Of a stretch of 64,000 nt of DNA, positions 4,778 to 24,926 are shown in pieces. The DNA is from Chitinophagaceae bacterium T5-Br10_B2g13 (GTDB lineage Bacteria; Bacteroidota; Rhodothermia; Balneolales; Balneolaceae). The notes below the pieces were generated by a model, which saw only the letters and a program-made list of their open reading frames with translations, was not told the DNA's origin and searched no databases. The translations under genes were made by a program, and so were the position numbers. The first letter of the stretch is position 1. Every line of letters begins with the position of its first letter. The stretch spans positions 1 to 64,000 of the forward strand of contig LKNA01000007.1 of assembly GCA_001564065.1 (NCBI GenBank), in the 5' to 3' direction.

Positions 4778-4800
4778 ATCCCCTCTCGAGAGGGGATTTT
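4778..4800 (+). terminator. Palindromic terminator, CCCCTCTC family
   Basis: A perfect 20-bp palindrome (arm ATCCCCTCTC at 4778-4787, mirrored to 4797) is followed on the plus strand by TTTTTG. It could end mutL transcription. The minus strand lacks a T tract here, so it is a weaker stop for menB. It belongs to the recurrent CCCCTC...GAGGGG repeat family. Confidence 0.6.
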
Positions 4801-4831: not shown

Positions 4832-5671
4832 CTACAAACTCAACCAGGGAAATTTCTTGAAGTTTGGTTTTCTCTTTTCTAAAAATGCTTTTCGTCCCTC
4901 TTCAGCTTCATCGGTCATATAGGCAAGACGGGTAGCTTCGCCTGAGAATACCTGCTGACCAACCATACCGTCATCCACCAGGTTAAAAGCGAATTTGATC
5001 ATACGAATGGCGGTCGGACTCTTACCGAGAATCTCCTGAGCCCATTCAAAAGCGGTCTCTTCCAATTCCTCATGAGGAACCACTTCATTCACCATTCCCA
5101 TCTCATAAGCTTCCTGTGCAGAGTAATCTCTTCCTAAAAAGAAAATTTCCCGTGCTCGTTTTTGACCAACCTGACGTGCCAGTAGTGCGGAACCAAATCC
5201 ACCGTCGAAGCTGGCAACATCGGCGTCTGTCTGTTTAAAAATACCATGCTCTTTACTGGCAAGCGTAAGATCACAAACCACGTGCAGACTGTGTCCGCCG
5301 CCAACAGCCCAGCCAGGCACTACACAGATCACCACCTTGCTCATAAACCGGATAATTCTCTGGACATCAAGTACATTGAGTCTCTGAACCCCATCAACAC
5401 CCTCATACCCTTGTTTGCCGCGCACTTTTTGGTCACCGCCGGAGCAAAATGCCCAGCCGCCGTCTTTTTTTGATGGACCTTCACCGGAGAGCAGAATTAC
5501 ACCAATTGAAGTGTCTTCCCGTGCATCAATTAAAGCCTCTTCCAGTTCAAACAGAGTTTGCGGACGGAAAGCATTTCTCACTTCCGGCCGATTAAACGCG
5601 ATTCGGGCTACACCGTCACGTTTTCTATAGGTGATATCTTCATACTCTTTTACAGTTTTCCAGTCAGACAT
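4832..5671 (-). CDS. menB: 1,4-dihydroxy-2-naphthoyl-CoA synthase MenB
   Basis: Dieckmann-type ring closure of o-succinylbenzoyl-CoA to DHNA-CoA in menaquinone synthesis; a cytosolic crotonase-fold hexamer. The 279-residue protein has the family signatures FNRPEVRNAFRPQT, the oxyanion/active-site segment FCSGGDQKVRG, PGWAVGGGHSLHVVCDLTLAS, the catalytic-loop QTDADVASFDGGFGSALLARQVG and the typical C-terminal LEKRKPNFKKFPW. Its start overlaps the end of menH by 8 bp, so it is the last gene of the menF-menD-menH-menB operon and translation is probably coupled. Confidence 0.97.
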   Translation of the reverse strand: MSDWKTVKEYEDITYRKRDGVARIAFNRPEVRNAFRPQTLFELEEALIDAREDTSIGVILLSGEGPSKKDGGWAFCSGGDQKVRGKQGYEGVDGVQRLNVLDVQRIIRFMSKVVICVVPGWAVGGGHSLHVVCDLTLASKEHGIFKQTDADVASFDGGFGSALLARQVGQKRAREIFFLGRDYSAQEAYEMGMVNEVVPHEELEETAFEWAQEILGKSPTAIRMIKFAFNLVDDGMVGQQVFSGEATRLAYMTDEAEEGRKAFLEKRKPNFKKFPWLSL

Positions 5672-21786: not shown

Positions 21787-23235
21787 ATGACTCCTGAGTT
21801 CAGACAGAGCTTAATTTTCTTGATAATCTTTTCTGTTTTTTCCCCTGCAGTATGGGCACAGGATACATCTACCTTTGTCCAGCCTGATGAAAAGAGTGTT
21901 CAAACTGAATCGGATCAACTGCCAAGAACGGTGTGGATATGGGCCGAACAAACGGTCAGTGAAAATTTGAGATCTAAATCTCCGAAACGAAATACTATCA
22001 TACTGAGTGGAGAAACGGAACAGCCATTTACAGGTCTGGCGGTGGGATGGAAACTGGACGATCATTCCATCAACCCGAATGAGTTTCAATTACAAATTCG
22101 AAGTTCGCTTCAGGATGAAGATTTTGGTGACTGGACCTCTTCGTACGGATATATCTCTCCACTGGAATCCCCCAGCGGTTTTTACTGGGCGATGCTTTAT
22201 GTTACGGAATCCGGGGAAGTGGACGAACGTTTTGAAGTGCAGATTGTGATGCCGGCCGGTGTTACGCTACAGGAAATTAAAGTTACAGGGGCTGATGCAA
22301 GACTAAAGAACGGAGACGATTTTGAAAATGTACAGAATGCGAAATTAGCTCCTAAAAGCTACGACATGCCGGAGATTGTGGATCGGGCCGGTTGGTGGGG
22401 TGATCTGCCGCCATCTGAGCTTGAGCCAAGTTATTCGCCAACACCGATTGATATTTCTCACTCACTGGTACATCATACAGTCACGGCTAATGAACCGGCG
22501 AATCCGGCGCAGATGGTTCGGCAAATATGGGACTGGCATGTGAATGACAATGGCTGGCTCGATATTGGCTATAACTTCTTGATCGATCACGAGGGGACGA
22601 TCTATCAGGGAAGATACAATCCAAACCTGGAACAGACGGACGTTCGGGGAGCGCATGCCGGAAGTGCCAACAGCCAAAGTGTAGGGATTGCTCTGTTGGG
22701 GCAGTTTGAGCCTGGTGCACAACCGGCTCCGAGTCAACCACAAACACTGGCTCTTGATGCTTTGATCAAAACAATTGGCTGGCGTTTTACTCAGAAGGGA
22801 ATTGGTGCAGAAAGCAGCGGATTTCTAGCCGGAAATTATCTGCCCGTAATATCCGGACACCGGGATGTTTCGGCCACCGCTTGTCCGGGAGTAAATCTCT
22901 ATCAGCTTCTGCCTGATATTCGATCTCAGGTGGAAACAGGTGAGTCTGATCCACCTGAAGAGATTGTGGAGTATCCCTTTGAGCTGAATCAAAATTACCC
23001 AAATCCGTTTGTCGGGGAGACAACAATCTCATTTTCGTTGGATAAAGATCTCCGTGTCTGGATTGATATTTACAACGTAAATGGCGTGAAAGTGGAGAGG
23101 ATTTATGATGAGATGACCGAACCGGGAGAGCATGAAGTGAATTGGTCCCCAACGGGACTCGCCAGCGGTGTCTATTTTTATGAAATTGGCACGGGTTCGC
23201 ACAGAGTAATGAAGCAGATGATCTATTTTCGGTGA
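21787..23235 (+). CDS. N-acetylmuramoyl-L-alanine amidase (Amidase_2/PGRP) with T9SS sorting domain
   Basis: 482 residues. A signal peptide ending near PAVWAQD is followed by a beta-rich segment (about 45-190) and an amidase_2/PGRP domain (about 190-375). Zinc ligands are seen: the first His in SLVHHTVTANE, His in ISGHRDVSATACPG and the Cys of ACPG. YNFLIDHEGTIYQGR and HAGSANSQSVGIALLG are typical. The last ~85 residues are a type A T9SS C-terminal domain: FELNQNYPNPF, then the SFSLDKDLRVWIDIYNVNG strands and LASGVYFYEI near the end. So the enzyme should cross the outer membrane and be attached or released at the surface. It cleaves the amide bond between muramic acid and L-alanine. Confidence 0.95.
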   Translation: MTPEFRQSLIFLIIFSVFSPAVWAQDTSTFVQPDEKSVQTESDQLPRTVWIWAEQTVSENLRSKSPKRNTIILSGETEQPFTGLAVGWKLDDHSINPNEFQLQIRSSLQDEDFGDWTSSYGYISPLESPSGFYWAMLYVTESGEVDERFEVQIVMPAGVTLQEIKVTGADARLKNGDDFENVQNAKLAPKSYDMPEIVDRAGWWGDLPPSELEPSYSPTPIDISHSLVHHTVTANEPANPAQMVRQIWDWHVNDNGWLDIGYNFLIDHEGTIYQGRYNPNLEQTDVRGAHAGSANSQSVGIALLGQFEPGAQPAPSQPQTLALDALIKTIGWRFTQKGIGAESSGFLAGNYLPVISGHRDVSATACPGVNLYQLLPDIRSQVETGESDPPEEIVEYPFELNQNYPNPFVGETTISFSLDKDLRVWIDIYNVNGVKVERIYDEMTEPGEHEVNWSPTGLASGVYFYEIGTGSHRVMKQMIYFR

Positions 23236-23749
23236 ACTGACTCACCCCCCGCCCCCCCTCTCTTTTCTCTCCGTTCAAAAAGAGGGGGAGAGTTTGAAAT
23301 GAACTTCGGGTCAGGAAACCAACCCCGTTAGGGGTAACCTGATTGTAGCCCCGGGAGTAGCAAGGCGAAATCCGGGTGTTAAAAGAGGTCGATTTGTCCG
23401 TGCCGAACAGAGAGTGTGAATAAAATTGAAAGACAATGTTGAGGCGTGTGTTTGTGGGTTTATTTCCTACAAAATGTAGATACCATATTTTTATAGTATG
23501 GTTTTACCCGTCAGACCGGGAGAAGCAGCTTGACCATATCCCTGATCCTGACTGCAAAACTACATTATGATCTCTATGAAAGTAATTTAACTCTGAATTT
23601 ATTCAGGAGTTCCCCTCTCTGCAGGCAGAGAGGGGACAGGGGTGAGTCCGATAAGGTGTGAATTTTTAAATCAACTCTTTGATGAGTGCATTAGCGAAAT
23701 AGGTTAAGAACTGGCTAGGTTGAGCAAGACGAAACACAGAGTTAATTTA
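23236..23749. other. 514-bp repeat-rich intergenic region without a gene
   Basis: No open frame with coding character was seen. It holds a CCCCCTCT...AGAGGGGG hairpin at about 23251-23288, an AACCCC-GTTA-GGGGT hairpin near 23322-23337, a CCCGTCAG motif at 23507-23514 and the first 114-bp direct repeat. The XRE gene ends just after it. Confidence 0.6.
23548..23661 (+). repeat. Left copy of a 114-bp direct repeat flanking the XRE cassette
   Basis: Aligns without gaps to 24643-24756, with about 14 differences by eye. Both copies end in an almost identical segment that contains the hairpin CCCCTCTCTGC-AG-GCAGAGAGGGG followed by ACAGGGGTGA and CCGATAAGGTGTGA. Both copies have the same orientation and lie 1095 bp apart. 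Confidence 0.9.
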
Positions 23750-23950
23750 TCAGTCATCATCTTCAAGAATAAAGATCTCTTCGACACTCTTATTCAGGAT
23801 GATACCAATTTTTAATGAAAGTGCCGTTGAGGGATTATAACGTCCGTTCTCGATTGCATTCACTGTCTGGCGTGATACCCCCAGTTTTTCAGAAAGTTCG
23901 GCCTGCGTTAGATTAAGCTCTACTCTGAACTTTTTTACCCTATTTTTCAT
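23750..23950 (-). CDS. XRE-family HTH transcriptional regulator, YozG-like
   Basis: 66 residues, almost all of it one Cro/C1-type helix-turn-helix: VKKFRVELNLTQAELSEKLGVSRQTVNAIENGRYNPSTALSLKIGIILNKSVEEIF. The acidic tail EDDD is the only extra. This compact single-domain form is usually an autorepressor encoded with a membrane protein. Its ATG overlaps the end of the upstream membrane protein gene by 11 bp, so translation is coupled. A perfect 7-2-7 palindrome before the operon is the obvious operator candidate. The gene pair sits between direct repeats. Confidence 0.92.
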   Translation of the reverse strand: MKNRVKKFRVELNLTQAELSEKLGVSRQTVNAIENGRYNPSTALSLKIGIILNKSVEEIFILEDDD

Positions 23951-24377
23951 ATCGAGATGTTTTCCATTTTAAATAGTGATGGACTATGAAAACCACAAAC
24001 AGAGTGGATGGAAGGCCTGCACGCGATAAATATATCTGCATTGGATTCCAGATAATTGAATAAATCAACAACACGAAAGAAATCCCTACAATTACTATCA
24101 GTCCAAGTAAAAAAGATTGCATACGAAGCTGAAGACTCATTTCGTCTTCAACTTTCTCCTTGGAGATTAAACATAGAATAAAACCAATTACAGGTAAGTG
24201 GTAATTAAGAAGCGATACTCTCAACATAGTTACTTCTGCTGATATCCAGCTAACATCATAAAATTGGTCGCTCATCGCAAAAATTATATAGATAAAAGCA
24301 GCAAGCCAGATCAATAAGAGAGTGTATCCTGTATATCTGAAAAATCTGGGCAGTAAAAATTTTTTTAAATGTATCAT
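23940..24377 (-). CDS. Four-helix membrane protein paired with the XRE regulator
   Basis: 145 residues with four hydrophobic helices: about 13-33 (YTGYTLLLIWLAAFIYIIF), 55-72, 88-108 (FLLGLIVIVGISFVLLIYSII) and 118-135. The loops are short and the C-terminus is basic (KWKTSRYEK). No catalytic motif was found. It is translationally coupled to the XRE gene, and similar membrane protein/HTH pairs are found across Firmicutes and Bacteroidota without a known function. It might sense the membrane and act with the regulator, but that is inference. Confidence 0.75.
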   Translation of the reverse strand: MIHLKKFLLPRFFRYTGYTLLLIWLAAFIYIIFAMSDQFYDVSWISAEVTMLRVSLLNYHLPVIGFILCLISKEKVEDEMSLQLRMQSFLLGLIVIVGISFVLLIYSIIWNPMQIYLSRAGLPSTLFVVFIVHHYLKWKTSRYEK

Positions 24378-24386
24378 ACTCTTTTA

Positions 24387-24402
24387 GTAAAGTTTACTTT
24401 AC
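24387..24402. promoter_or_regulatory. Perfect 7-2-7 inverted repeat, candidate XRE operator
   Basis: GTAAAGT-TT-ACTTTAC lies 10-25 nt upstream of the first ATG of the XRE operon, where a bound protein would block transcription or initiation. Looser half-sites GTAAA (24416) and CTTTAC (about 24441) follow further upstream. Confidence 0.6.
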
Positions 24403-24642
24403 ATACAGTCTAGGTGTAAAATTTATAAATGTCAAGATTGCTTTACATTCTGCGTTTCACTCTTTGTTTTTATTGGCTTACATCCAATTTTCTTTATTCA
24501 GGATAAATAATTTGAAATTTTACAGAACGCTTTATACGATAAGGTTGGTTGAACTTTTCGTTTCATCCCTCCCGATAAACTACATCCGTACAGGAAAGTC
24601 TCCAATCTCATTTTTCGCCAGCTGACGAATCAAAAAGTGCAG

Positions 24643-24756
24643 CTGACTTGAAAACTATATTTTGATCTCTATTAAAATAAGTTGGCACTGATTTTATTCA
24701 GTGGTTCCCCTCTCTGCAGGCAGAGAGGGGACAGGGGTGAATCCGATAAGGTGTGA
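24643..24756 (+). repeat. Right copy of the 114-bp direct repeat
   Basis: Same length and orientation as 23548-23661. The last ~55 bp, from GTTCCCC to GGTGTGA, differ at a single position between the copies, while the first ~60 bp have diverged more. Confidence 0.9.
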
Positions 24757-24778
24757 GTTGTAGTAAAAGTGATTTTAA

Positions 24779-24926
24779 CCGTCAGACCTTTAAACACACC
24801 CCTTGCATACATGAATAGCATTACATGCTTTCATTCATACTTTTCCCCTCTCGAGAGGGGACCGGTTGGCGAAAGATCGCTAAGCGAGTCTTTCGAAAAG
24901 CTGGGGTGTGTTTAGCGGCCTGACGG
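24779..24926. repeat. 148-bp composite inverted-repeat element
   Basis: Ends pair as CCGTCAG / CTGACGG (7 bp) and then TAAACACACCCC / GGGGTGTGTTTA (12 bp), separated by a symmetric 5-nt mismatch. Inside are three hairpins: ATGAAT..GCAT / ATGC..ATTCAT near 24809-24838, CCCCTCTC-GAGAGGGG at 24845-24860, and CGAAAGA..TCGC / GCGA..TCTTTCG near 24870-24895. It has no coding capacity and looks like a non-autonomous repeat. Confidence 0.75.

Follow-up and report, generated by a model that had tools for sequence, protein, structure and literature searches.

The stretch of 64,000 nucleotides analysed here (the window) carries a small XRE regulator gene and a membrane-protein gene, which lie between two direct repeats, R1 and R2. 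The most probable reading, to which we assign a probability of about two in three, is that the genes form a gained, autoregulated and membrane-responsive repressor pair of the CylR1/CylR2 type, and that R1 and R2 are dispersed copies of a foldback element which do not delimit the pair. The initial annotation had taken the same arrangement for a cassette between repeats. One part of that reading stands, namely that the pair was gained locally, as shown by its low GC content and by two related genomes, G023 and G018, which are without it. The other part, that the repeats are the boundaries of a unit, is not supported.

The window is part of contig G000:C181 (69,250 bp) of the source genome (G000), whose assembly comprises 4.30 Mb in 258 contigs with a completeness of 97.6% and a contamination of 8.9%. 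It was compared with 27 congeners, so that 28 genus genomes including G000 were covered, and the genome-wide repeat counts given below come from searches. The left neighbour of the pair is an amidase gene (21787-23235) and the right neighbour is a gene for a FAD-dependent protein (from 25015), both located on the strand opposite to the pair. The same order of the amidase and FAD-dependent protein genes is found in the congeners G018 and G023. Because this neighbour order is kept, the contig can be regarded as genuine DNA of the lineage despite the 8.9% contamination. An Rfam search of the window gave no match.

Comparison with relatives, proposed in the initial annotation as a check, shows that the pair is missing in the two nearest of them, where the flanks run straight through. 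The G023 sequence follows that of the window colinearly as far as about position 23534 and resumes at about 24913, and in G018 the same flanking genes are joined with a short hairpin, CCCGTCAGACCGCTTACCGCGGTCAGACGGG, between them. The gained segment absent from the orthologous intergenic region of both is approximately 1.38 kb long (23535-24913), with edges good to about 10-20 bp. Besides the two genes and both repeats, it includes the greater part of a further hairpin element at 24779-24926. The gained DNA exceeds both repeats, starting before R1 and ending about 150 bp past R2. The GC content of the gene pair is 35.7%, compared with 43.6% for the window, and only 5 of 317 window segments of the same length are lower. 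In protein searches no homologue of the membrane protein was found in 26 of the 27 congeners, including the nearest relatives G023 and G018; just one of 57 relatives, G008, has the protein, with a best identity of 45% and at a different location. The pair is a lineage-specific local gain, as judged from the single genome of the species that was covered. A gain is preferred over repeated loss because it is more economical.

The hairpin of the ancestral site, TTTTAMCCGTCAGACC, is located at 23503-23518 (plus strand) and is orthologous to TTTTACCCGTTTGAC of G023. A right copy of TTTTAMCCGTCAGACC, at 24774-24789 (plus strand), is identical to the left copy in 15 of 16 positions. Either a target duplication or another copy of a common hairpin could account for this repeat at 23503 and 24774; exact CCGTCAGACC sites number 17 in G000, compared with 4 for the reversed control. 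The hairpin element at 24779-24926 is unrelated to R1 and R2. It has terminal inverted repeats TTTAAACACACCCC and GGGGTGTGTTTA, its arms are 88% complementary and its fold has a z value of -9.3. It seems to be enclosed by a CCGTCAGACC hairpin, at the right end of the gained segment. A family similar to this element flanks a DUF559 gene in G023 (L214).

The XRE gene (23750-23950, minus strand) codes for a CylR2-like regulator of 66 amino acid residues with an HTH_3 domain (E = 2e-16). Its closest solved relatives are 9k3w, a regulator of the PbsX family (E 7e-16), and CylR2 itself (1utx, E 1e-11), the phmmer match to 1utx/2xiu spanning residues 3-61 with an E-value of about 1e-11. The membrane-protein gene (23940-24377, minus strand) overlaps the XRE gene by 11 bp on the same strand and codes for 145 residues with four predicted helices, matching no Pfam family over cut-off. 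A model based on an alignment of 49 family members also has four helices, with a pLDDT of 80. The invariant residues Ser72, Lys73, Glu77, Asp78, Glu79 and Arg85 lie partly in the loop that connects helix 2 to helix 3 and partly at the start of helix 3. A fold search with this model gave no significant match.

The arrangement of the two genes is retained far beyond the genus. A scan of genome contigs gave 118 relatives of the membrane protein, of which 80 were kept, nearly all from Bacteroidota, and 65 of those kept have an XRE gene immediately after the membrane-protein gene. The junctions between the two genes are typically -4, -11 or -1 bp. The related pair in G008 has the identical 11-bp overlap and its XRE protein is 56% identical to that of the window; no foldback repeat was found beside it. 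G008 has one more gene related to that of the membrane protein (L066:5901-6437); no XRE gene lies downstream of it, and a lipoprotein-like ORF overlaps its end. No relatives of the membrane protein were found in viral contigs and plasmids.

A candidate operator for the XRE protein, GTAAAGTAAACTTTAC, is located at 24387-24402, upstream of the membrane-protein start. The candidate promoter (24407-24435, minus strand) consists of TTGACA (24430-24435) and TAGACT (24407-24412) separated by 17 bp. The motif GTAAA-N4-8-TTTAC is present upstream of the membrane gene in 25 of 82 family members, while shuffles would give 0.56 and the motif occurs in 1.4% of control segments. That no more than 25 of the 82 upstream regions have it nevertheless counts against the preferred reading. 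The layout of TTGACA, 17 bp, hexamer and operator is the same in the window and upstream of the G008 pair. Judged from these motifs, the palindromic candidate operator sits in the shared promoter, which is the predicted anatomy of an autoregulated operon. The pair in the window may follow the same logic as CylR1/CylR2.

The following course of events can be proposed. About 1.38 kb of DNA was gained in an intergenic region that accumulates hairpin repeats, and it carries the genes for the membrane protein and the probable XRE repressor in one operon. A dimer of the XRE protein would bind GTAAAGTAAACTTTAC at its own promoter and probably keep expression of the operon at a low level. By means of its conserved SKEKxEDE...R segment, the membrane protein could bind or release the XRE protein when a signal arises in the membrane or outside the cell, and this binding or release would change the expression of the operon. 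In this reading R1 and R2 are copies of a dispersed, non-autonomous foldback element, either independent of each other or relics, and they neither encode nor delimit the pair. At most they may have provided homology for the arrival of the pair or for a later rearrangement.

The repeats themselves were correctly described in the initial annotation as two gap-free sequences of about 114 bp on the same strand, with about 14 differences and 1095 bp apart, framing the gene pair, and the self-comparison confirms this. R1 (23548-23664, plus strand) and R2 (24643-24759, plus strand) are 87% identical over 117 bp with a spacing of 1095 bp. They are the sole repeat pair at E <= 1e-4 in the 64-kb self-comparison (E = 2e-34), and their similarity is therefore not due to chance. 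R1 consists of the middle part and the right hairpin arm of a foldback (MITE-like) copy, without the left arm. R2 is a second foldback copy, with a degenerate left arm recognised by eye just upstream, at about 24608-24642. The right half of both contains the same 26-bp near-perfect palindrome, TCCCCTCTCTGCAGGCAGAGAGGGGA, located at 23611-23636 in R1 and at 24706-24731 in R2, which folds with an 11-bp stem and represents the conserved core of the arm. The loop and the outer tail, CCGATAAGGTGTGA, are common to R1 and R2. A repeat copy from G023 agrees with R1 at the stem and the outer arm and differs from it at the loop and the left part.

The first 114 bp of R1 and R2 differ at 14 positions; the left 57 bp account for 11 of these and the right 57 bp for 3, so the initial annotation was right that the right half is nearly identical and the left half diverged. 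It had read this unevenness as a possible sign of conversion or of recent origin. However, conservation of the right half as a hairpin arm extends to the repeat family as a whole, and the uneven divergence is therefore not peculiar to this pair. Gene conversion is not needed as an explanation, because the agreement is that of a conserved hairpin arm, and 11 against 3 differences would also be weak evidence for it. An origin of R1 and R2 by tandem duplication of a larger block was ruled out, because the similarity ends at the repeat edges.

A DNA search across the genus with the repeat gave 8 matches in G000 and matches in 8 further genomes. A strict hairpin pattern matched R1 and R2 only, and a covariance model built from 22 arm sequences was used instead. 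With this model about 21 matches are found in G000 and 22 in G023, and the family is present in 16 of the 28 genus genomes. In the window the model matches R1 at 23605-23651 (E 1.2e-14) and R2 at 24700-24746 (E 1.5e-13). A third arm of the family (23236-23294, minus strand, E 2.2e-6) lies just past the amidase gene, outside the gained segment, and the orthologous site of G023 has a longer repeat copy. Complete copies are about 180-245 bp long with the ends GGACTCACCCC...GGGGTGAGTCC. Four of them (L187, L188, L190 and L191) consist of GGACTCACCCCCTGTCCCCCTCTCT-loop-AGAGGGGGAACTC, an AT-rich middle of about 50 bp and GAGTTCCCCCTCT-loop-AGAGAGGGGGACAGGGGGTGAGTCC. The terminal inverted repeats and inverted hairpin arms are seen in the complete copies L187-L194; R1 and R2 themselves are truncated. 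The family is a foldback/MITE-like element with two inverted hairpin arms, and it is short, non-coding, dispersed and present in many copies. At two other places in the source genome, L197 (G000:C143) and L204 (G000:C183), copies of the repeat are found in tandem direct orientation with a duplicated spacer of about 250-500 bp; in these blocks intergenic DNA duplicates locally.

Among the other close pairs of same-strand units that were read, with a spacing of 1.3-3.5 kb, ordinary core genes lie between the units. The direct repeat pairs in G021 and G014, for example, have leucine-biosynthesis-like genes between them. A direct pair with genes in between is thus common and is not by itself evidence of a unit. 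It is nevertheless conceivable, if unlikely, that R1 and R2 terminate a composite mobile unit, and that R1, the two genes and R2 moved as a block, possibly by the action of DUF559 in trans, which may also move the units that flank DUF559 genes. The G023 DUF559 gene is placed between two units of the same orientation, in the layout of the window; the loop and outer tail shared by R1 and R2 would also fit, and the 15-of-16-bp direct repeat at both edges (23503 and 24774) could reflect the arrival of R1, the genes and R2 in one block. Against this, the gained DNA extends past both repeats, the left arm is missing from R1 and degenerate in R2, and the related pair in G008 has no such repeat alongside. 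No second case of XRE and membrane-protein genes between two units was found, and direct pairs elsewhere flank core genes. Taken with the roughly 21 dispersed hits in G000, these observations speak against the repeats as the boundaries of a cassette.

The initial annotation had further expected that recombination between the repeats would remove the pair cleanly. The direct orientation does permit a loop-out, and the pair might then be ancestral at this site and have been lost by the relatives through such recombination. A loop-out would not recreate the site of the relatives, however, since it would leave one repeat and the 24779-24926 hairpin, while G023 and G018 have neither there. The gene is also missing in 26 of the 27 congeners and the GC content of the pair is atypical, so that an ancestral origin is very improbable. 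A toxin-antitoxin or addiction module was considered as well: a toxic membrane protein would be repressed or neutralised by the XRE protein, and the low-GC gain would be a selfish one. The size of the genes, their overlap and the gain itself would agree with such a module, and one distant member of the 49 in the membrane-protein family weakly matches the SpoIISA toxin (E 0.0024). But neither gene matches a toxin family over the curated cut-offs of Pfam and NCBIfam, the membrane protein has no match in PADLOC, and the XRE models of toxin-antitoxin type match the window protein only below their cut-offs. In addition, the arrangement is conserved on the chromosomes of many Bacteroidota, homologues of the membrane protein were found neither on plasmids nor in viral contigs, and a near solved relative of the XRE protein is a signalling repressor. 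We consider a toxic role quite unlikely, and the undescribed addiction-type module suspected in the initial annotation is better described as a conserved operon of the CylR1/CylR2 kind.

The gene pair belongs to a known kind of unit, and the point of interest is the link between the repeat family and DUF559. Genes for DUF559, a Vsr-like endonuclease, were observed between or beside foldback arms in G027:C106 (L178), G001:C106 (L179), G014:C48 (L180), G021:C74 (L181) and G024:C83 (L183). In G023 (L186) the DUF559 gene lies between two whole foldback units; the relatives that were searched lack a close orthologue of its far-side gene, so no clean empty site was obtained. A foldback arm is located within 300 bp of 9 of the 71 DUF559 hits (8 loci), where 0.15 would be expected for uniform placement and about 1.5 if intergenic bias is allowed for by a factor of ten. 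The inverted similarity between the 5' and 3' flanks at 21 of 27 genus DUF559 loci exceeds the best of 49 window ORFs. A DUF559 gene with its foldback arms resembles an autonomous element from which MITEs derive.

In three congeners, G001, G014 and G024 (L239, L246 and L250), the start of the element adjoins the menB stop codon directly, and DUF559 may point either way. No element is present downstream of menB in G018 (L259) and several others. The window has a palindrome, CCCCTCTCGAGAGGGG, at 4780-4795, just downstream of its own menB gene (about 4835-5668, minus strand), in the same place as the DUF559 element of some relatives.

Several lone DUF559 genes in the phylum sample have the same hairpin-flanked layout. 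DUF559 was also found in frame as an internal or terminal part of a leucyl-tRNA synthetase (L264:526-3312), a methionine synthase (L282:1-3327) and a GATase_5 protein (L272:1-1830); it is placed between the two B12 domains of the methionine synthase and after the GATase_5 domain. It occurs in restriction/methylase-like proteins as well (further loci L262, L267 and L171), and in several cases the flanking hairpins are translated through in frame. Loci with DUF559 in a long frame were intended as a negative control, and several of them carry flanking hairpins too, so the phylum-wide comparison has no clean control; the breadth of the pattern in the sample is suggestive. R1 and R2 could be non-autonomous derivatives of an undescribed mobile class, in which a lone DUF559 gene lies between hairpin-bearing inverted ends, and which would occur across the phylum sample, insert immediately behind stop codons and even in frame within genes such as those for leucyl-tRNA synthetase and methionine synthase, and leave MITE-like relics. 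This proposal is tentative and has, in our estimate, slightly less than an even chance of being correct. No paper describing such an element was found in the literature covered, which includes few subscription journals.

The value of these results is mainly clarifying, since an apparent undescribed unit framed by repeats turns out to be a regulator operon of a known kind beside dispersed repeats. What the repeats mark is messy non-coding DNA, and they do not bound a new mobile unit complete in itself. Of greater weight is the repeat family, because in several related species a DUF559 endonuclease gene lies between its arms, and DUF559 domains accompanied by similar hairpins are found within essential proteins in other parts of the phylum sample. 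If these elements form one mobile class, this would give a function to DUF559, a common domain annotated as unknown, and would account for many palindromes in intergenic DNA and for many annotations of chimeric proteins.

It is useful to compare the gene pair and the repeats with systems already described. In Enterococcus faecalis, induction requires CylR1, which is suspected to be a membrane protein, and the DNA-binding repressor is CylR2 (PMC3709268). The window pair is similar in having a 66-residue XRE protein homologous to CylR2, an adjacent and co-directional small multi-helix membrane protein, and a palindromic candidate operator at the promoter of its own operon. The membrane proteins, compared here by description, differ in that four helices are predicted in the window and three are reported for CylR1 (PMC3709268), and the window protein has a distinct conserved SKEKxEDE motif. 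Unlike CylR1/CylR2, the pair has no lantibiotic or peptide-toxin operon alongside, its neighbours being the amidase and FAD-dependent protein genes of the opposite strand. For this reason we describe the pair as CylR1/CylR2-like in its working and not as a strict member of that group.

The R1/R2 family resembles bacterial MITEs and foldback elements in being non-coding, about 180-245 bp long when complete and present in about 20 intergenic copies with hairpin-bearing inverted arms. It differs from them in that no classical DDE or HUH transposase was seen with the family, and the sole gene found between its arms is DUF559. Like REP/BIME sequences with RAYT, the units are short extragenic palindromes that are at times clustered. 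However, they are longer, no GTAG tag is seen in the palindrome on inspection, and the associated gene codes for a DUF559 endonuclease, while RAYT has a Y1 transposase. A further parallel in layout is with TIRtrons/TIRYT (PMC3733652), in which an enzyme gene likewise lies between terminal inverted repeats that have solo families as well; the enzyme there is a tyrosine transposase, and in the elements of the R1/R2 type its place is taken by DUF559.
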